Origin: Corallococcus sp. EGB
GTDB taxonomy: Bacteria; Myxococcota; Myxococcia; Myxococcales; Myxococcaceae
DNA: 64,000 bases
Assembly: GCF_019968905.1 (NCBI RefSeq)
Contig: NZ_CP079946.1
Span: forward strand, 3,162,001 to 3,226,000
Reading direction: 5' to 3'
Positions 33,348-40,782 of this stretch are shown one piece after another. The position numbers and the translations under genes are program-made. The number at the start of each line of letters is the position of its first letter. The first letter of the stretch is position 1. The notes beneath the pieces are model-generated. The model was not told the origin of the DNA. It did not search any database and saw nothing but the letters and a program-made list of their open reading frames with translations.

Positions 33348-34631
33348 TCAGCGCGCCACGGCGACGGACGCGGGCGGGGCGGCCTCGGGGGCGGGGGGCT
33401 CGTCCTCCTGGGGCTGGGCGGCGGTCTCCGGCAGGAACATCAACAGCACCAGCGCGGGGAAGGCCGCCGCGGCGGTGAAGGCGAAGAAGGTGGGCCAGCC
33501 CATCCATGTGGCTAGGTAGCCGGACACGGAGCCGATGAGCCGGTTGGCGATGGTGCCCAGCGCGGACAGGAGCGCGTACTGCGTGGCGCTGAAGCTCTTG
33601 TGGCACAGCGACATCAGGAAGGCCGCGAACGCCGTGACGCCCAGGCCCGTGCACACGTTGTCCACGGCGATGGTGCCCGCGAGCATCAGGTCGTTCTTGC
33701 CCACCAGCGCCAGCGCCATGAAGGCCAGGTTGGTGAGGCCCTGCGCGGCGCCGAAGATGAACAGCGCGCGGCGCATGCTGAGCTTCACCATCAGCACGCC
33801 GCCCAACAGGCCTCCGCCAATGGTGGCCAGCATGCCGAGCGTCTTGCTGAGCGCGCCAATCTCCGTGTTGGAGAACCCCAGCTCGATGTAGAAGGGCGTC
33901 ACCATGCTGGCGGCGATGGCGTCCCCCAGCTTGTAGAGCACCAGGAACGCGAGCACCCCCAGCGCGTACTTGCGGCGGAAGTAGTCCACGAAGGGCCGCA
34001 CCACCGCGTCCGCCAGGTTGCGCGGAGGCTTCACGCTCTGCGGCTCCGGGGCCAGCAGGGTGGCCACCACGCCCACGCCCATGAGCAGGCCCATCACGTG
34101 GTACGTCATGGACCAGCCCAGGTGGTCCGACAGGATGAACGCGAGCCCGCCCGCCACGAGCATTCCCAGCCGGTAGCCGGTGACGTACATCGAGTTGCCC
34201 AGCCCGCGCTCCTCCAGGGTGAGGATGTCCGTGCGCCACGCGTCCGCGACGATGTCCTGGCTGGCGGACAGGAACGTCACCACCACGGTCATGCATGCCA
34301 TGGCGACGGGGGTGTCCTTCGGGTTCACCAGCCCCATGGCCGCGATGGCGCCCATGAGCAGCAGCTGCGTGAGCAGCATCCAGCCGCGGCGCCGGCCCAG
34401 GAACGGCAGCGTGTAGCGGTCCATCAGCGGCGCCCAGAGCACCTTGAACGTGTAGGGCAGCGCCACCAGGCTGAAGACGCCAATCGTCTTGAGATTGACC
34501 CCCTCGTTCTTCATCCACGCGGACAGCGTGACGCCGGTCAGCCACAGGGGGAGGCCGGAAGCGAAGCCGACGGCCATCAGGAGCCAGATTCGCCGGCTCT
34601 TCAAGACGGTGAGAAGCGAGGAGTTGGGCAT
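33348..34631 (-). CDS. ampG: AmpG-family muropeptide transporter (MFS)
   Basis: A 427-residue inner-membrane protein starting MPNSSLLTVLKSRRIWLLMAVGFASGLPL. It continues with the AmpG hallmarks FKVLWAPLMDRY, GRRRGWML, SASQDIVADAWRTD and GYRLGMLVAGGLA, with about twelve membrane segments. AmpG imports anhydromuropeptides released during peptidoglycan turnover. The C-terminus is a short acidic, proline/alanine-rich cytoplasmic tail. It lies downstream of the caspase operon but after a 111-base gap, so co-transcription is uncertain. Confidence 0.9.
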   Translation of the reverse strand: MPNSSLLTVLKSRRIWLLMAVGFASGLPLWLTGVTLSAWMKNEGVNLKTIGVFSLVALPYTFKVLWAPLMDRYTLPFLGRRRGWMLLTQLLLMGAIAAMGLVNPKDTPVAMACMTVVVTFLSASQDIVADAWRTDILTLEERGLGNSMYVTGYRLGMLVAGGLAFILSDHLGWSMTYHVMGLLMGVGVVATLLAPEPQSVKPPRNLADAVVRPFVDYFRRKYALGVLAFLVLYKLGDAIAASMVTPFYIELGFSNTEIGALSKTLGMLATIGGGLLGGVLMVKLSMRRALFIFGAAQGLTNLAFMALALVGKNDLMLAGTIAVDNVCTGLGVTAFAAFLMSLCHKSFSATQYALLSALGTIANRLIGSVSGYLATWMGWPTFFAFTAAAAFPALVLLMFLPETAAQPQEDEPPAPEAAPPASVAVAR

Positions 34632-34742
34632 GGGGGCGCGGGGAAACAGCCGCCAGCATAGAGAATCCACCCGGCCCGTCACCTTCCTCGGGGCTGGGAC
34701 TGTCCGCCCGGCTGCTGTCCGGGCCGAAGCCCGGGCGCCTCT

Positions 34743-35711
34743 TCAGGGCGTGACGTCCAGCGCGGACACGTCCGGGCAGGTGGCGCGGCTGCCCTCGGTG
34801 GGGGTGATGAAGTCCCAGTTGCGCGCCATGAAGGTGACGCGCGTCTGGGCGTCCCAGCACTCCGTGTACTTCGCGCCCTTCGCGTCCCCCTCCAGGATGT
34901 TGAGCACCAGCACGCCGCGGCCGTCCGGCGTCCAGCGTGCCACGATGTCCAGCGTCTCCAGGAGCCCGCCGGGAATCAGGTCCTCCCCGGGCAGCCGGAA
35001 CGCCATCTCTCCCAGCCCCTCCGGCGTCCGACGCGACGCATAGCGGGTGTCCGGTGTCGCGGCACCCACGTCCGTGAAGAGCAGCTCCACGCGGGTGGGC
35101 AGCGCCTTCGTCTGGTAGTCGATGTCCAGCCGGTCCACCGCGTTCGCGTCCCCGCCGGTCTCGAAGCCATGCGCGCGGGCCGCTTTCAGGTCCAGCGCGA
35201 GCGTGCCGGTCCCCTTGCGGATGCCGCCGCCCGCCTTGAAGGTGCCAGGCAGGTAGGTCCACCACTCGCCCTCGCCTCCGCCCCGCGGACGGAACTGGAG
35301 GAGGTAGGCGAAGGAGGTGTCCTGGCGCTCCATCACGAAGCGCAGCTCGTGGCCCGGGTGGTCCTGGGCGGGGAAGGGGCCCCAGATGCGCCGGTCGGCT
35401 TCGCGCGTGGTGGGCGGGGCGTTGCGGACCAGCTCCAGCAGGGCGAGCAGCGCGTCCACGCTGGTGTTGAACCGCTTGCCCGCGATGTAGGCCTGGAGGG
35501 CCAGCCGTGACGTGCCGCCCAGCACCTGCGCCGCTCCCAGCCGCTGGACGCTCGTGCCCAGGTCCTGGCCGGAGCGGGCGGAGGCCGGCAGCTTCGCGGC
35601 CAGGTCCTCGCGCTGGGGCAGGGCGTTCTGGAACTCCAGGTCGTCGTTGGAGAAGTCGCCGCCGCATGCGAGCGCGAGGACGCAGGGGAGGGCCAGGGCA
35701 AGATTTCGCAT
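34743..35711 (-). CDS. Lipoprotein, last gene of the ECF/caspase operon (322 aa)
   Basis: The ATG at 35711 follows GAGGGAG, which overlaps the stop of the caspase gene. Signal MRNLALALPCVLALAC has a lipobox-like LALAC. The mature protein has NAPPTTREADRRIWGP at about residue 90, a beta-rich middle, and TECWDAQTRVTF near the end. The lipoprotein at 38719-39714 shares the same landmarks (KYPPTTLEENKAVWGP and NECWDAHFLSTYF), the same length and the same order of motifs, so the two are paralogues. They bracket the sigma/anti-sigma/caspase genes. Function unknown; probably outer-membrane anchored. Confidence 0.8.
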   Translation of the reverse strand: MRNLALALPCVLALACGGDFSNDDLEFQNALPQREDLAAKLPASARSGQDLGTSVQRLGAAQVLGGTSRLALQAYIAGKRFNTSVDALLALLELVRNAPPTTREADRRIWGPFPAQDHPGHELRFVMERQDTSFAYLLQFRPRGGGEGEWWTYLPGTFKAGGGIRKGTGTLALDLKAARAHGFETGGDANAVDRLDIDYQTKALPTRVELLFTDVGAATPDTRYASRRTPEGLGEMAFRLPGEDLIPGGLLETLDIVARWTPDGRGVLVLNILEGDAKGAKYTECWDAQTRVTFMARNWDFITPTEGSRATCPDVSALDVTP

Positions 35712-35722
35712 CACGGGCTCCC

Positions 35723-37366
35723 TCATGGCTCGTACGTGAGCAGCGCGGACATCTCCCAGAAGCCCAGGGAGCGCTGCGCGTCGACGGTGTATTGCAGGTA
35801 CTGCAGGCGGGTCCTCGCGGTGAGGTTCAGGTGGCGCGAGAGCTGGAAGCGCGCGCCGGTCGCGAGGCCCGGGGACACCATGGCGAAGCGCTGATCCGGG
35901 AACGCTCCGTCGTCGAACTTGCGGCCCATGATGAGGTACGCGACGCGCACGCCCACGAACGGCGCGAAGCGGCCCACGGGCCACTCGGCGGTGAGGCTGG
36001 TGCCCACGTTCACCACGGAGTAGCGGTACGCGGGGCCCTCCAGCGTGGGCAGCGTCAGCAGGCCGTGGGTGCCGCCCACCGCCGCGTCGAAGCCCCAGAC
36101 CCAGTCGCGGCGGAAGTAGTCGTGCAGCTCGGCCTCCGCGCCGAAGAGGGGCACGGAGAGGAAGAGGGACTGCCGCGTCTGGGCGTCGAAGAAGGACTGG
36201 AAGCCGCCGGTGAGACCGAAGGCCCACCAGGCGCCTCGGTCCCTCATGGCGCCCTTCACGGGGTCGTCGGAGAAGGGCGCGTCCTTGAAGCGCGGCTCCT
36301 GCAGGATGGTGGTCCGGCCGCGCGCGACCTCCACCTCGCCAATGCGCAGCCGGTCGCTGAGCCGGCGCTTCACGCGGTACGTGCCCGGGGCCAGGGCCAC
36401 GCGGCGCTCGGCGTCCGCGGTCTTGTCCAGCTCCGCGACCACGAGCCCGCCCGGATCCACGAAGTAGTAGGGGCCAGCGGGGGCGTTGCCGGGGACGATG
36501 AGGCCTTCGGCGCTCGCGCGCAGGTCGGTGAGGACCAGGTCTCCGTTGCCCGCGAGGTCGTAGCTGAACGTGGGGTGCTGGGGGCCCGCGCTGCTGTCGG
36601 CCGTGTCCGCGACGGTGCGGGCGTAGGCGTGTGAGTACGCCTCGAAGAGCGTCACGCGTCCGTCGCCGCTGCGGTCCGCGTCCCCCAGGAGGCCACTGAC
36701 CAGGTGGTGGGAGAAGTAGCTGCCGCCCAGCGCGTCCGACTCCTGCGAGTCCTCGTCCGAGGCGCTGGAGGTGAGGATGACGACGCCTCGCGCATCGCGG
36801 GCCGCGCCGGACTCCACGTCGAAGGCGGGGGCCTTGCGCGCGCCCTTGGTGCGGGTGAGCGCGCCGGAGCGGCAGGAGTCGAGGATGGCGATGCGGATGT
36901 CCACGGGCGCGTCGGCCAGCCGGCGCTTGAGGGCGTCGAAGGCGAGCCGCGAGTCGCCCAGCCGCAGCGCGCCGTCCTTCGCGTGGCCGGAGTAGTAGAC
37001 GAACAGCGCGGTGCGCTCACCGCGCGCCCGCGCATCGCGGGCCCGCTGTTCCAGCTCCGACAGGGCGACGAGGAAGTTCTTCGCGTCGCCGTCGAGGAGG
37101 AGCTTCGCGTCGGAGGGGGACACGCCGCCCAGCCGCGTGAGCAGGTCGTGCATCTTGCGCGCATCGTCGCGCGCGTAGCTCAAGGGCCGCGTGTCCGCGC
37201 CGCCCGTGTCGTTGCCCGCGATGAGCGCGAAGCGGTGCAGCGTGTCCGCATGCGCGGCGGTGGAGGCCAGGACGAGCGCGGGAAGCGACGCCCGTATCGC
37301 CGAGCCCAGGGCCCGGGTCCAGGCCGCCGCGGGAGCGAACACCTGTTTCACGGGACCGTCGCTCAT
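35723..37366 (-). CDS. Caspase-family (C14) protein with C-terminal barrel-like region (547 aa)
   Basis: The ATG at 37366 overlaps the anti-sigma stop (ATGA). An N-terminal hydrophobic stretch ending in STAAHA is a signal peptide, so the protein is exported. Residues 45-290 form a caspase-like peptidase domain: FALIAGNDTGG, ARDDARKMHDLL, catalytic His in YYSGHAKDG (about residue 128) and catalytic Cys in ILDSCRSGAL (about 165). A GDGRVTLFEAYSHAY motif and a carboxypeptidase-like beta segment follow. From about residue 390 the chain alternates short strands (WWAFGLTGGFQSFF ... LRYLQYT-like) as in outer-membrane barrels. Proteolytic activity is probable; the target may be the envelope signal sensed by the operon. 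Confidence 0.88.
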   Translation of the reverse strand: MSDGPVKQVFAPAAAWTRALGSAIRASLPALVLASTAAHADTLHRFALIAGNDTGGADTRPLSYARDDARKMHDLLTRLGGVSPSDAKLLLDGDAKNFLVALSELEQRARDARARGERTALFVYYSGHAKDGALRLGDSRLAFDALKRRLADAPVDIRIAILDSCRSGALTRTKGARKAPAFDVESGAARDARGVVILTSSASDEDSQESDALGGSYFSHHLVSGLLGDADRSGDGRVTLFEAYSHAYARTVADTADSSAGPQHPTFSYDLAGNGDLVLTDLRASAEGLIVPGNAPAGPYYFVDPGGLVVAELDKTADAERRVALAPGTYRVKRRLSDRLRIGEVEVARGRTTILQEPRFKDAPFSDDPVKGAMRDRGAWWAFGLTGGFQSFFDAQTRQSLFLSVPLFGAEAELHDYFRRDWVWGFDAAVGGTHGLLTLPTLEGPAYRYSVVNVGTSLTAEWPVGRFAPFVGVRVAYLIMGRKFDDGAFPDQRFAMVSPGLATGARFQLSRHLNLTARTRLQYLQYTVDAQRSLGFWEMSALLTYEP

Positions 37367-38151
37367 GGCTTCAAGAGAACCCACTGCGTCTGCGCGCCCG
37401 CCACATCCAGCGGGGCCATGCGGGTGACGTCCCGGCCCGCCGCGATGAAGGACTTCCGGGCCGCGTCGCTCAAGGCCGCCATGGACAGGGGCGACTCCGT
37501 CAGCACCAGCACCACGCGCTCCGCGCCCGCGCCGGTGAACTCCACGCTCTCCGGCAGCCAGTGCTGCCCCGCGCCCGGCTCCACCTCGAGGCTGTCCCCG
37601 GACTCCGGATAGAGCGGCGTCACCTCACCCTGCGCGTCCACGGACAGCGCCGCCACGTAGCGGTACGCGTCCGCCGTGTAGCCCAGCCGCACGCGCTCTC
37701 CGGGTTGCAGTGCCTCCTGCGCCTCCGTGCTTGCCACCCGCTGCGGATCCACTCCGCCCCCAATCCGCAGCTCCGCGCTCGCGCCCCCCTTGAGGCGGTT
37801 GCCCGCGACGGGCGGCTGGGCCGGATCCGTTCCGCCTCTGGTCCCCAGCAGCGGACGCGCCAGCACCAGCACCACCAGGGAGGCCGCCACCGCCAGCAGC
37901 GGCCGGACCCACTGCGCGCGCGTCGCCGGTGCCTTCATCTCCTGCCGCGCGCGGGCCCGCTCCACGCCGGCCTCGAAGCGCTCGAAGGGCACCTCCGCCT
38001 CGAAGGCCGCCTGGGCGTCCGCGAAGGACCGGAGCGTCGCGCCACACGCCGCGCATCCCTGCACATGCTCCCGGACGCGGTGGGTCTCCTGCGCGGGCAG
38101 CTCGCCGGCGTGAAGGCGGCGCAATGTCCAGTTCGACTCGTGCGCGCTCAT
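37363..38151 (-). CDS. Zinc-finger anti-sigma factor (262 aa)
   Basis: The ATG at 38151 overlaps the sigma-factor stop by four bases. The N-terminus has the ZAS zinc motif HRVREHVQGCAACG (H-x3-C-x2-C pattern with an additional His) expected to bind the sigma factor. A single membrane segment follows at about residues 92-113 (LLAVAASLVVLVLARPLL). The periplasmic part contains a DUF4384-like beta domain (VRLGYTADAYRYVAALSVDAQGEVTPLYP) seen in proteins that also carry or neighbour caspase-like peptidases. It should hold the sigma factor at the membrane until a signal arrives. Confidence 0.88.
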   Translation of the reverse strand: MSAHESNWTLRRLHAGELPAQETHRVREHVQGCAACGATLRSFADAQAAFEAEVPFERFEAGVERARARQEMKAPATRAQWVRPLLAVAASLVVLVLARPLLGTRGGTDPAQPPVAGNRLKGGASAELRIGGGVDPQRVASTEAQEALQPGERVRLGYTADAYRYVAALSVDAQGEVTPLYPESGDSLEVEPGAGQHWLPESVEFTGAGAERVVLVLTESPLSMAALSDAARKSFIAAGRDVTRMAPLDVAGAQTQWVLLKP

Positions 38152-38690
38152 CGGACGCTCAGCTCCTCTCCACCCAGCTCCGCGAAATGCTCCAGCCGCT
38201 TGCGCACCGTGGGCACCGAACGCCCCAGCACCGCGGCCACCTCTTCCAGCGTCATCCCGTCCACGTGGTAGTGGATCGCCGCCGCCTGCGTCTCCGCGTC
38301 CACCCGGGCCAGCAGCCTGCGCACCAGGTCGCGCGTCTCCATCGCCTCCGCTCCACCGTGGCCCTCCGGACGGGCCGCCGCGTCCCGCGCGAACCACCGC
38401 CGCCACGCCGCCCCTTCCGAGCGCAGCTGGTTGAGGCAGTGGTGCGTGGCAATCTTCATCAGCCACGTCAGCGGAGATGCCTCCGCCCGGAACGAGTCCC
38501 CGTGCACGAGCGCGCGGGCGAAGACGTCGTGCATCGCGTCCTCCGCCCGGCTCGCGTCCTTCAGCAGGTAGCGGCAGCGCTCACGCACGCTGCCGCCGTA
38601 CTTCACATACAGGTCGCGCAGGACGGCCCGCCGGTCCTCGTTGGGACGGGGAGGCACCACCTTCAGGGCCAGCGGGGTCGGTCCGGTCAC
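38148..38690 (-). CDS. ECF-type RNA polymerase sigma factor (180 aa)
   Basis: The protein shows sigma region 2 (RAVLRDLYVKYGGSVRERCRYLL, then AEDAMHDVFARAL and SPLTWLMKIATHHCLNQLR) and region 4 (ETQAAAIHYHVDGMTLEEVAAVLGRSVPTVRKRL). There is no region 1 or 3. It is the second gene of a run of overlapping genes (sigma, anti-sigma, caspase, lipoprotein), 28 bases after another lipoprotein. Region 2.4 and 4.2 are intact. It probably autoregulates the operon, but no ECF promoter was recognised with confidence. Confidence 0.93.
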   Translation of the reverse strand: MTGPTPLALKVVPPRPNEDRRAVLRDLYVKYGGSVRERCRYLLKDASRAEDAMHDVFARALVHGDSFRAEASPLTWLMKIATHHCLNQLRSEGAAWRRWFARDAAARPEGHGGAEAMETRDLVRRLLARVDAETQAAAIHYHVDGMTLEEVAAVLGRSVPTVRKRLEHFAELGGEELSVR

Positions 38691-38718
38691 GCGAGGCGCA
38701 AGCCTACCGCGACACCGC

Positions 38719-39714
38719 TCACAGCGACGAGTACACCGCCGCCGTGAACCCGCCGCAGGCGCTCGCCTCCTCGCCGTAGCCCTGGCGGGGGTCCACGCTG
38801 ACGCGGAAGTAGGTGCTGAGGAAGTGCGCGTCCCAGCACTCGTTCAGGGTGGCCTCGCCAACAAGGTCGCCCTCCGACACCTTGACGTCCGAGCGCCCCA
38901 CGCCCGTCGCCGCCCAGCGGCTCTTGATGGACAGCTTCTCCAGCTTCAGGCGGTTCAGGTCGCCGATGTCGATGTTCTTGTGCGTGACGAAGTCGAACTC
39001 GCCCCCCGCCGTCGGCGAGGCCTGGTAGTGGTACTTCGCGTCCACGCGCTTGCCGTCGTCCTCCTCGTCACGCACCTGGTGGAAGTCCGCGTCCACCGTG
39101 ACCTGCGACGTCGCGCTGGCGCGTGCATAGCGGATGTCCACCGTCCCCAGATGGTTGTCCGCGCCCGGCAGGGTGAAGGCGGCGTCCCAGTCGATGAGCA
39201 ACTGCCCGGAGCCGAAGCCCCGCTTGCGCTCGCCGTCCGAGCCCACCTCCACCGTCTGCGCGCCGGACAGCACCGCCCGGAACGCGCTGTCCTCCGCCTG
39301 CTTCGGCTTGCCCTCCAGCACCCAGGAGAACGACGCCTCCCCGGACTTCGTCACCGTCAGCCGCCACGCGACGAGGTCCATCGGGCCCGTGCTGGGGCCC
39401 CACACGGCCTTGTTCTCCTCCAGCGTCGTCGGCGGATACTTCGTGATCTGCTCGATGAGGTTCAGCACCCAGAGCGTGCCGCCGTTCACCACCACCGTGG
39501 CGGCCACCGTGGCCTTGAAGTAGTCCGCCGTCTGACCCTGCGTGGCCGTCGCGGCCGGGCCCTCGGCCTTCAGACCCTGCCCGTTCTCCTTCGGCGCGTT
39601 CACCTGCACCATCTCCTTGGAGGGCAGGCCGTCACGGAACGTCGCTTCGTCGGGCTGTCCCGCGTTGCAACCGGCGAACAGCAGAGAGGCACACAGCAGG
39701 CTCTTGCGCAGCAT
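38719..39714 (-). CDS. Lipoprotein, paralogue of the 34743-35711 product (331 aa)
   Basis: Signal MLRKSLLCASLLFAGC has a lipobox (FAGC, cysteine 16). The mature protein shares with the lipoprotein at 34743 the landmarks LIEQITKYPPTT...VWGP, a long beta-rich middle with LIDWDAAFTLPGADNHLGTVDIRY, and NECWDAHFLST near the end. Its stop is 28 bases before the ECF sigma start, so it probably heads the same transcript. Lysine- and aspartate-rich segments suggest a soluble periplasmic face. Function unknown; a sensor or substrate for the sigma/caspase module is a reasonable guess. Confidence 0.82.
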   Translation of the reverse strand: MLRKSLLCASLLFAGCNAGQPDEATFRDGLPSKEMVQVNAPKENGQGLKAEGPAATATQGQTADYFKATVAATVVVNGGTLWVLNLIEQITKYPPTTLEENKAVWGPSTGPMDLVAWRLTVTKSGEASFSWVLEGKPKQAEDSAFRAVLSGAQTVEVGSDGERKRGFGSGQLLIDWDAAFTLPGADNHLGTVDIRYARASATSQVTVDADFHQVRDEEDDGKRVDAKYHYQASPTAGGEFDFVTHKNIDIGDLNRLKLEKLSIKSRWAATGVGRSDVKVSEGDLVGEATLNECWDAHFLSTYFRVSVDPRQGYGEEASACGGFTAAVYSSL

Positions 39715-39800
39715 GGTCGGGTGTCCTTTCAGGGCCCGTTTCGTGCGGGCCGTGTGGCAGTGACTTCGCCCCTATGGACACAGGCCAGCCGGAAAACAGA

Positions 39801-39829
39801 AAAAGCGCTCGCTTGGGCCGGAAAAGCGC
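39801..39829. repeat. Spaced direct repeat upstream of the ECF operon
   Basis: AAAAGCGC occurs at 39801-39808 and 39822-39829, start to start 21 bases, which puts both on one face of the helix. CCGGAAAA is also repeated (39789-39796 and 39818-39825). The region is about 90-115 bases before the lipoprotein start at 39714 and before the divergent gene at 39925, a likely operator position. Confidence 0.4.
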
Positions 39830-39924
39830 AGTGATACCAATTGGTTGGAGGCTGGCTGCCTGCTCTCCGGGCGCCCGCGCCCGCCTGCCCGACGGTTGAA
39901 ATGGGCCATCCCTACCTTTCGCCC

Positions 39925-40782
39925 ATGGAAAAACGACACCCGAACCATCCCGGGGAGATGGGTACGGACGCCACGCTGGCCGAGCGGGAGCGTGCGCCGG
40001 ACGAGATCAACGCCCGCGCCAGAGCCGTCGGTCTGCTGCACGAGGCCGGGGTGCCGTTCGTGGTGGGCGGGGCGTATGCCTACGCCACCTATACCGGCAT
40101 CTACCGCGACACCAAGGACCTGGACCTGTTCCCGCGCAAGCGTGACGCCATCCGCGCCCTGGAGGTGCTGGAGAAGGATGGCTGGCGCACGGAACGTCCG
40201 GATGAGGTCTGGCTCTACAAGGCCTACAAGGGGGACTACTTCGTCGACTTCATCTTCTCCTCCGGCAACGGCGTGGCGACGGTGGACGACGAGTGGTTCA
40301 CCCACGCCAGGAAGGCCACCATCTTCGGCTACGAGTGCCTCATCGCGCCGGCCGAGGAGATGATCTGGTCCAAGGCCTTCGTCACCGAGCGCGAGCGCTA
40401 TGACGGCGCGGACATCAACCACCTCATCCTCAAGGCGGGGCGGGAGATGGACTGGGACCGCATCCTCCGGCGCTTCGACCGCTACTGGGAGGTGCTGCTC
40501 AGCCACCTGATGATGTTCCGCTTCGCCTATCCCAGCGAGCGCGACATCGTGCCCAACTACGTGATGACGGAGCTGATGAGCCGCACGCTCCAGACGGTGC
40601 GCGATGGCCGCTGGGACGAGAAGCTGTGCCGGGGCAACCTGGTGTCCAAGGTGAACTATCACGTGGACATCCACCACTGGGGCTTTGGGGACGGCAGGGC
40701 GTGGGACGAACAGGACAGACCCGAGGGGGGAGCCCGTGGCGCGAGATCCGAGCTCGAAGATTCGGCTGGCAGCGGTCGGTGA
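39925..40782 (+). CDS. Nucleotidyltransferase-fold protein (285 aa)
   Basis: Start is uncertain: ATG 39925 is chosen, and ATG 39901 is possible; neither has a clear ribosome site. Residues 42-70 read VVGGAYAYATYTGIYRDTKDLDLF. This is the core of a minimal nucleotidyltransferase: the GG motif on the first helix and the DLD metal site (about residues 65-68). VDFIFS supplies the third strand. The rest is helical. Such domains transfer nucleotides to RNA, protein or small molecules, or act as antitoxin/toxin partners. It overlaps the metallophosphoesterase gene by 47 bases. Only general fold evidence supports the function. Confidence 0.8.
   Translation: MEKRHPNHPGEMGTDATLAERERAPDEINARARAVGLLHEAGVPFVVGGAYAYATYTGIYRDTKDLDLFPRKRDAIRALEVLEKDGWRTERPDEVWLYKAYKGDYFVDFIFSSGNGVATVDDEWFTHARKATIFGYECLIAPAEEMIWSKAFVTERERYDGADINHLILKAGREMDWDRILRRFDRYWEVLLSHLMMFRFAYPSERDIVPNYVMTELMSRTLQTVRDGRWDEKLCRGNLVSKVNYHVDIHHWGFGDGRAWDEQDRPEGGARGARSELEDSAGSGR

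Follow-up and report, generated by a model that had tools for sequence, protein, structure and literature searches.

A conserved sigma factor, anti-sigma factor and caspase gene set in Corallococcus and a short motif common to the caspase and its candidate substrate

In the RseA/DegS/RseP system of Escherichia coli, the anti-sigma factor of an extracytoplasmic function (ECF) sigma factor is first cut by an envelope-stress protease, DegS, which is an inner-membrane serine protease with a PDZ domain. Here, we analyze a five-gene locus of Corallococcus sp. EGB (contig NZ_CP079946.1, minus strand, positions 34743-39714 of a window of 64,000 nucleotides, which is the whole stretch of DNA that was analyzed), where the candidate protease would in contrast be a caspase-clan cysteine protease on a predicted outer-membrane barrel. 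Bacterial caspase homologues have, to our knowledge, few known natural substrates; the locus names a candidate substrate, the putative site K121-G122 within it and a matching putative self-processing site. If this is true, a transmembrane sigma switch would have a caspase as its first protease, and the eight loci of the genome, as well as related ones across the phylum, might have a function in common. A CRISPR caspase cascade is reportedly present in Haliangium, and the CRISPR CASP system is cytoplasmic, with an inhibitor that is not a zinc-associated anti-sigma (ZAS) membrane protein. The Csx29 (TPR-CHAT)/Csx30/CASP-sigma arrangement is alike in that a caspase-clan protease, the CHAT protein Csx29, cleaves the inhibitor of a sigma factor and positive autoregulation is proposed; it differs in that Csx29 is RNA-activated and part of a CRISPR effector (PMC10028731). 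No CHAT, TPR or Cas family is among the Pfam matches of our five proteins, the wider surroundings not having been scanned for CRISPR.

The closest described gene arrangement dates from 2012: Sigma factors and metacaspases share predicted operons for four of the five metacaspases of Myxococcus xanthus DK 1622, and such operons also occur in Anaeromyxobacter, Haliangium, Sorangium, Ralstonia and Fibrobacter (PMC3501461). The M. xanthus sigma-70/metacaspase operons resemble our locus in that the metacaspase gene is in a predicted operon with a sigma factor; they differ in that the terms anti-sigma and barrel have zero occurrences in the paper, and its section on these operons describes neither a lipoprotein pair nor a shared motif. 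EACC2-caspase neighbourhoods likewise link a caspase gene to an ECF sigma factor, together with DUF1822, and that paper contains the term anti-sigma zero times (PMC8195603). In contrast, none of our five proteins matches DUF1822 (no search for EACC2 was made), and the caspase scores 62.8 bits against a cut-off of 140 for the EACC1-associated caspase model NF047832. The initial annotation, made from the sequence alone, knew of no described system with this gene set. This has to be narrowed: The combination of sigma factor and metacaspase was already reported in 2012 (PMC3501461) and recurs at seven further loci of the genome, whereas a literature search of partial coverage retrieved no report of the whole gene set, the anti-sigma partner, the outer-membrane barrel, the lipoprotein pair or the shared motif. 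New here are these seven further loci and the tetrapeptide R-x-K-G common to the caspase loop and the anti-sigma stalk.

The five genes are, in the order of transcription:

38719-39714, minus strand: lipA, lipoprotein A, 331 amino acids, lipobox Cys16, no Pfam or NCBIfam match
38148-38690, minus strand: ECF sigma factor, 180 amino acids, GTG start, with TIGR02937, Sigma70_r2 and Sigma70_r4_2 above cut-off
37363-38151, minus strand: ZAS anti-sigma factor, 262 amino acids, with zinc-finger domain (zf-HC2), one transmembrane helix and a DUF4384-like beta domain (sub-threshold DUF4384 match, AlphaFold2 model)
35723-37366, minus strand: exported caspase, 547 amino acids, with signal peptide, caspase fold, small beta domain and predicted 8-stranded barrel (PF00656, AlphaFold2 model, fold searches)
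34743-35711, minus strand: lipB, lipoprotein B, 322 amino acids, paralogue of lipA (BLASTP)

All five were found at these coordinates and in the order first annotated, as were the ATGA overlaps at the sigma/anti-sigma and anti-sigma/caspase junctions and the 11 bases between the caspase stop and the lipB ATG at 35711; an alternative in-frame lipB start, an ATG at 35726, would overlap the caspase stop. Since lipA and the sigma gene are spaced by 28 bases, a single operon of all five genes is possible. A search for sigma-70 promoters and terminators within 34500-39950 found none, and PADLOC returned a single weak caspase match on the locus (E 0.011).

Within the caspase and the anti-sigma factor, the following features bear on a possible protease–substrate relationship:

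36515-37249, minus strand: caspase fold, residues 40-284 (predicted model; Z 18.7 to caspase-7, Z 18.2 to metacaspase-4)
36983-36985 (H128) and 36872-36874 (C165), minus strand: catalytic residues H128 and C165, which like D163 are present in 46/46 orthologues
36842-36853, minus strand: activation-loop motif R172-T-K174-G175 of the caspase, R-x-K-G in 45/46 caspases, loop below a predicted local distance difference test (pLDDT) score of 50
36641-36676, minus strand: EF-hand-like loop D231-x-S-x-D235-G236-x-V-x-x-x-E242 of the caspase, with D231, D235, G236 and E242 invariant in 46 sequences
35726-36241, minus strand: OmpA-like 8-stranded beta-barrel, residues 376-547 of the caspase (predicted model, fold searches)
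38044-38067, minus strand: zinc-finger motif H29...C33xxC36 of the anti-sigma factor, C33 and C36 invariant and H29 in at least 90% of 41 sequences
37846-37908, minus strand: transmembrane helix of the anti-sigma factor, residues 82-102 (AlphaFold2 helix, hydropathy)
37786-37797, minus strand: stalk motif R119-L-K121-G122 of the anti-sigma factor with the proposed cut after K121, R-x-K-G in 39/41 sequences, coil in the model

The caspase matches PF00656 with 46 bits (cut-off 21.4), and its predicted fold together with the His-Cys dyad places it in Peptidase C14; a sequence search against the PDB gave no match at E<=0.1. In the AlphaFold2 model, built from a 46-sequence alignment (pLDDT 82, predicted TM-score (pTM) 0.62), the caspase fold is followed by a small beta domain at residues 288-354 and by eight long strands within residues 380-545. 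The predicted barrel aligns with OprF, NspA and OmpA at Z 17.8-17.9, the value being 17.9 for OprF (root mean square deviation 1.9) and NspA (2.8). At E<=0.01, the Pfam barrel families Opacity and OMP_b-brl match 7/46 and 4/46 orthologues, respectively, and no Pfam barrel family matches the caspase of the window itself. The signal peptide was judged by eye and from the N-terminal helix of the model; as the caspase domain stands between this signal peptide and the barrel, it is expected on the periplasmic side. The His and Cys residues, the export and the barrel-like C-terminal half named in the initial annotation have thus held up, the latter two as predictions. The stretch past Cys165 (residues 167-207) lies mostly below pLDDT 50, including the loop 167-192, and the invariance of Asp163 is consistent with a preference for a basic P1 residue, as in orthocaspases, which cleave after basic residues (PMC6426788). 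The EF-hand-like loop may bind Ca2+; an EF-hand model matches 1/46 orthologues at E 0.0089 and 2/8 other caspases of the genome, below curated cut-offs.

The anti-sigma factor scores 23.0 bits for zf-HC2 (cut-off 22.2; 21/41 orthologues match at E<=0.01) and carries the H-x3-C-x2-C (ZAS) motif at H29, C33 and C36. Its AlphaFold2 model (pLDDT 88.8, pTM 0.57) contains helices within residues 7-72 and a beta domain from residue 125, the latter being connected to the transmembrane helix by a coil stalk (residues 103-124, pLDDT <50 at 104-114). The presence of the beta domain, previously read from the sequence, is borne out by the model, and its periplasmic location is predicted. As DUF4384 (PF14326) reaches 22.7 bits against a cut-off of 27 (17/41 orthologues at E<=0.01), we call this domain DUF4384-like only; a Foldseek search with the model gave no match at E<=0.001. 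The sigma factor scores 63.8 bits for TIGR02937 (cut-off 42.9) and has ECF-type regions 2 and 4; because the two genes are ATGA-coupled, the anti-sigma factor would bind and inhibit it.

Both partners conserve the same tetrapeptide. Among 41 anti-sigma sequences, K121 is present in all, R119 and G122 in 40 each and the complete R-x-K-G in 39, the exceptions being GIKG (L058) and RIKS (L072); these 39 stalk copies are all occurrences of the motif in the whole proteins. From residue 103 up to the motif, in contrast, the stalk varies between 5 and 23 residues in length, and in no column does one residue occur in more than 22/41 sequences. In the caspase loop, K174 and G175 are found in 46/46 sequences, with KDKG in L119 as the one departure from R-x-K-G. 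Given that orthocaspases cleave after basic residues (PMC6426788), the pairing of a basic residue with a following Gly, both in the flexible stalk close to the membrane and in the disordered loop, has the appearance expected of a shared cut site, and the anti-sigma factor is a plausible caspase substrate, as initially suggested. The lipoproteins had been named as an alternative substrate, which was not borne out: In 66 aligned lipoproteins, no Lys or Arg is found at an invariant or nearly invariant position, and R-x-K-G occurs only 7 times among them. We also considered DUF4384 as the origin of the K-G motif and rejected it, the Pfam stretch starting at residue 148, 26 residues past G122.

Besides the window, the 9.43 Mb genome contains seven further sigma/anti-sigma/caspase loci, designated L135, L136, L137, L162, L166, L182 and L183, and loop and stalk match at four of the eight loci (R-x-K-G in the window, L135 and L136; R-G in L182). 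Across the phylum, the sample of L135-type loci comprised the 30 top-ranking ones and 20 others selected to cover diversity: Gene calling gave a caspase in 46/50, with both sigma and anti-sigma factor in 37 of these 46, and the 38 unique stalk/loop pairs comprise 33 with R-x-K-G in both partners, two with a K-G stalk and an R-x-K-G loop and three with an unread loop. In the divergent L182-type family (30 loci, 23 with sigma and anti-sigma factor in the short fragment), R-G is present in both partners in 24 of 25 unique pairs, the remaining one being unread; a two-letter match within a stretch of 43 residues is weak evidence alone. Seven anti-sigma sequences lacking a clear transmembrane helix were excluded from the pair counts, and since the pairs are related sequences, their agreement counts a few families and not many independent events. 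As a control, chosen after the motif had been seen, we inspected the 25 genes directly downstream of a sigma gene in the genome: Within 35 residues past the transmembrane helix, the eight caspase-linked genes contain [KR]G in 7/8 and R-x-K-G in 4/8 cases. The 17 unlinked genes encode proteins with a single (8), no (4) or several (5) transmembrane helices; the eight single-helix proteins include one [KR]G (L149, helix at 11-29, a doubtful anti-sigma factor) and zero R-x-K-G, and in one of them (L147) only two residues follow the helix.

The gene order, which the initial annotation had proposed to check in other myxobacteria, is conserved across genera and families. In 60 caspase loci from a scan of genomes, with order determined by tblastn (E<=1e-3, on the strand of the caspase, within 4.5 kb), the exact order lipA-sigma-anti-sigma-caspase-lipB is found in 43. 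Another 11 loci end at contig ends (L063, L073, L074, L080, L091-L097; in L093, sigma factor, anti-sigma factor, caspase and downstream lipoprotein are present before the upstream end), L067 has a second lipB, L085 has its caspase in two pieces, and four depart from the order (no lipA detected in L076, L081 and L087; sigma factor and caspase only in L099). Of 20 further stretches picked for diversity, several from the same genomes as the 60, 15 have the full order; the others lack a lipoprotein (L103) or lipA (L104, L105), have one lipoprotein, located downstream (L118), or consist of caspase and lipB only (L119). Caspase matches at E<=1e-10, paralogues included, and lipoprotein matches at E<=1e-6 each occur in 124/145 genomes of the order. 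In one genus (group g19, 27 genomes, G094-G120), 22 genomes have a full-length caspase and strong lipoprotein matches, whereas four (G106, G116, G117, G119) have neither apart from one lipoprotein hit each (E 9e-7 to 1.5e-9), so that the module in this genus tends toward loss as a whole. In G118 (L329:5221-7700), the caspase is split by an insert with transposon-like genes, presumably IS66-like, and both lipoproteins, the sigma factor and the anti-sigma factor are kept.

By our estimate, the link between caspase and sigma factor within the genome also exceeds chance. The PF00656 list contains at least six caspases, a floor because the caspases of L166 and L182, which exceed the Pfam cut-off when scored as proteins, went unlisted. 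Three of these six have one of the three best hits of an anti-sigma profile immediately upstream, the first of these hits being the window's own sequence, which contributed to the profile, and a fourth has a weaker hit (E 7.5e-6) upstream; the caspases of L138 and L139 have no sigma gene beside them. Because L162, L166, L182 and L183 were found near sigma/anti-sigma genes, the unbiased figure is 4/6 caspases, or 3/5 without the window; assuming that regions up to 3 kb from a sigma gene make up about 3% of the genome, we estimate the chance of at least 3/5 at about 3e-4. A caspase profile, run on the called genes around each of the 47 PF04542 sigma hits, yielded six loci with a caspase-fold gene beside sigma and anti-sigma genes (window, L135, L136, L137, L162, L166); L182 and L183 are two more, their sigma genes having been missed by PF04542. 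The E-values of this profile are meaningless at the eight loci because seven of them are among its seeds. Independently, PF00656 is above cut-off in L135, L136, L137, L166 and L182 and below it in L162 (17.6 against 21.4; the called caspase is short, 304 amino acids), and the caspase of L183, which is divergently oriented, has no PF00656 match and is matched by the L182 query at E 2.2e-52. Related caspases are spread over the whole phylum: Cross-matches between types included, queries of the L135, L182 and L137 types match 160/195 (E<=1e-8), 143/195 (E<=1e-6) and 97/195 (E<=1e-20) genomes, respectively.

We propose that the locus encodes an envelope switch of regulated proteolysis in which the caspase is the first protease acting on the anti-sigma factor, and we give this proposal an even chance. 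That the caspase would turn the switch on is suggested by the same short putative cutting motif in caspase and anti-sigma factor. The proposal is supported by the observed gene order (43/60), the recurrence at seven loci, the catalytic residues (46/46), the conservation of the motif in both partners with R-x-K-G or R-G pairs in families, the joint presence or loss in the 27 genomes, a promoter-like motif described below and the Csx29 precedent; together with the predicted folds and topology, the barrel among them, this also lends support to the signalling and proteolysis module at the envelope that the initial annotation had envisaged. From these data we infer cleavage and its specificity, activation, autoregulation and the role of the lipoproteins as follows: The ECF sigma factor would be held by the single-pass inner-membrane ZAS anti-sigma factor, whose DUF4384-like domain would reside in the periplasm, and the exported caspase would be fixed in the outer membrane through its C-terminal barrel, its catalytic domain facing the periplasm. 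An envelope signal, perhaps Ca2+ at the EF-hand-like loop or failed insertion of the caspase's own barrel, would trigger self-processing after K174 at the R-x-K-G of the loop. Next, the caspase would cleave the stalk of the anti-sigma factor at the matching R-x-K-G, behind K121; proteolysis of the anti-sigma factor would be completed by a membrane protease, and the freed sigma factor would transcribe its own operon, with the lipoprotein pair sensing the signal or setting its threshold. In an unlikely elaboration, the system would be an assembly gauge: An inserted barrel would park the caspase at the outer membrane, out of reach of the inner-membrane anti-sigma stalk, and failed insertion would lead to self-processing at R-x-K-G, cleavage of the anti-sigma factor at the corresponding motif and an ECF response, the module having been multiplied into parallel pathways, several of them motif-matched.

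Several observations weigh against the caspase as first protease. The main difficulty is distance, as in the models K121 lies 19 residues past the inner-membrane helix and the caspase is tethered to the outer membrane; a cut within the loop would not alone release it from the barrel. The distance might be bridged either by the reach of the tether or by activation with the barrel uninserted. Moreover, loop and stalk disagree at four of the eight loci of the genome: L137 and L166 have a K-G stalk and no such loop motif, L162 has an R-G stalk and PRKAGG in the loop, and L183 has an R-G loop and no [KR]G in the stalk. In the L137-type sample (30 loci, 25 with both sigma and anti-sigma factor), all 29 unique pairs have a K-G stalk (four of them R-x-K-G), which in some can come from a K-G at the edge of the transmembrane helix, and 0/29 have the loop motif. 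Conversely, the orphan caspase of L138 carries the loop motif and has no sigma/anti-sigma neighbour. Five DUF4384 anti-sigma loci with x-K-G stalks initially looked free of a caspase; in three (L324-L326), a caspase lies beside the gene or within about 3 kb, and around L327 and L328, whose stalks retain V-K-G, none lies within about 5 kb. Finally, a structural role of the stalk motif is possible, as it is located next to the first strand of the periplasmic domain.

ECF sigma factors often transcribe their own operon. The caspase could be an output, that is, the sigma factor would induce the caspase and the lipoproteins as envelope effectors, the anti-sigma factor would be controlled by another protease or by a ligand of the DUF4384-like domain, and the stalk motif would serve that protease or be structural. 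The K-G stalks of L327, L328 and the L137 type, together with the position of the motif next to the first strand, fit this explanation, which we take seriously without expecting it to hold; it leaves unexplained why the same tetrapeptide is in the caspase loop of the window and L135 types and why a family has R-G in both partners. A common motif would suit a pseudosubstrate equally well: The anti-sigma factor might inhibit or scaffold the caspase with its K-G stalk in the active site, so that release and not cutting signals. Some cyanobacterial orthocaspases have DUF4384 as an accessory domain (PMC7475262), and a caspase gene is nearby at 20 of 30 DUF4384 loci of the phylum, examined out of a longer list (16 with a caspase-profile match at E<1e-20 within 1.5 kb and four more, L302, L303, L312 and L295, after widening). 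Weak caspase matches were seen at L294 and L309; L296, L297, L317 and L318 gave none after widening, and L299, L301, L304 and L316, which were not widened, gave none within 1.5 kb. Yet a flexible stalk suits a substrate, and we give the pseudosubstrate a slim chance. We consider a module for programmed cell death or prey killing, in which the active caspase would destroy envelope or prey proteins and the sigma factor would set its level, highly improbable: A metacaspase role in myxobacterial cell death has been suggested (PMC3501461), but the predicted anchoring in the cell's own outer membrane, the tight sigma/anti-sigma link and the stalk motif point to signalling.

The promoter-like motif mentioned above is located upstream of lipA:

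39772-39802, minus strand: candidate autoregulated ECF promoter, core TTTCTGTTTT-N11-GTGTCC, conserved upstream of lipA across 24 aligned sequences

Besides the window, the alignment contains 23 loci from Corallococcus, Myxococcus, Archangium and relatives; the block GTGTCC is present in 24/24, and the T-rich block shows single changes in a few. A loose version of the pattern occurs once in the 9.43 Mb genome, upstream of lipA at this locus. Being conserved and unique in the genome, the motif would be in line with a very narrow regulon of the sigma factor. In a midpoint-rooted FastTree phylogeny of 38 sigma proteins of the genome, seven of the eight caspase-linked sigma factors cluster with the unlinked L164 and that of L162 stands apart, a tree that carries no weight because its support values were not read. 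LipA and LipB are paralogues (BLASTP E 8e-18, 28%), in agreement with the initial annotation. A single-sequence lipoprotein search of the genome matched only lipA and lipB, against three matches with lipoprotein profile A3. None of the 66 lipoproteins matches Pfam at E<=0.01, and a PDB search returned only antibody chains at E 0.23 or worse.

Several minor observations concern copies and surroundings of the module. Immediately adjoining the five-gene module of L071, the other strand carries a further sigma and a further caspase match (L071:775-4371). The full-length caspase is present in two copies per genome in G072, G073 and G074 (L104, L105), and lipA was undetected at both G074 copies. A contig titled Comamonas sp. 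KCTC 72670 (L050) contains a complete module with a caspase of 75% identity; this record is probably mislabelled or contaminated. Downstream of the module, a gene at 33348-34577 of the window, which we take to encode an AmpG-like transporter, adjoins it also in the Myxococcus loci L334 and L329. In L137 and L166, the two modules in which the caspase has a lipobox-like N terminus, the position downstream of the caspase is occupied by a gene for a CarboxypepD_reg-domain protein (L137:9622-10278 and L166:7959-8558). The orphan exported caspase of L138 (L138:7439-14275, C1 at about 320 kb; 696 amino acids, loop TRFKGG) has a different envelope context, as the genes that follow it presumably encode ExbB, ExbD, TonB and a TonB-dependent receptor. 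In L135:4898-7162 and L138:7439-9529, the region from the caspase domain to the C terminus contains many G-x-Q-L-G-x-x-N-like repeats, by eye perhaps a beta-solenoid.

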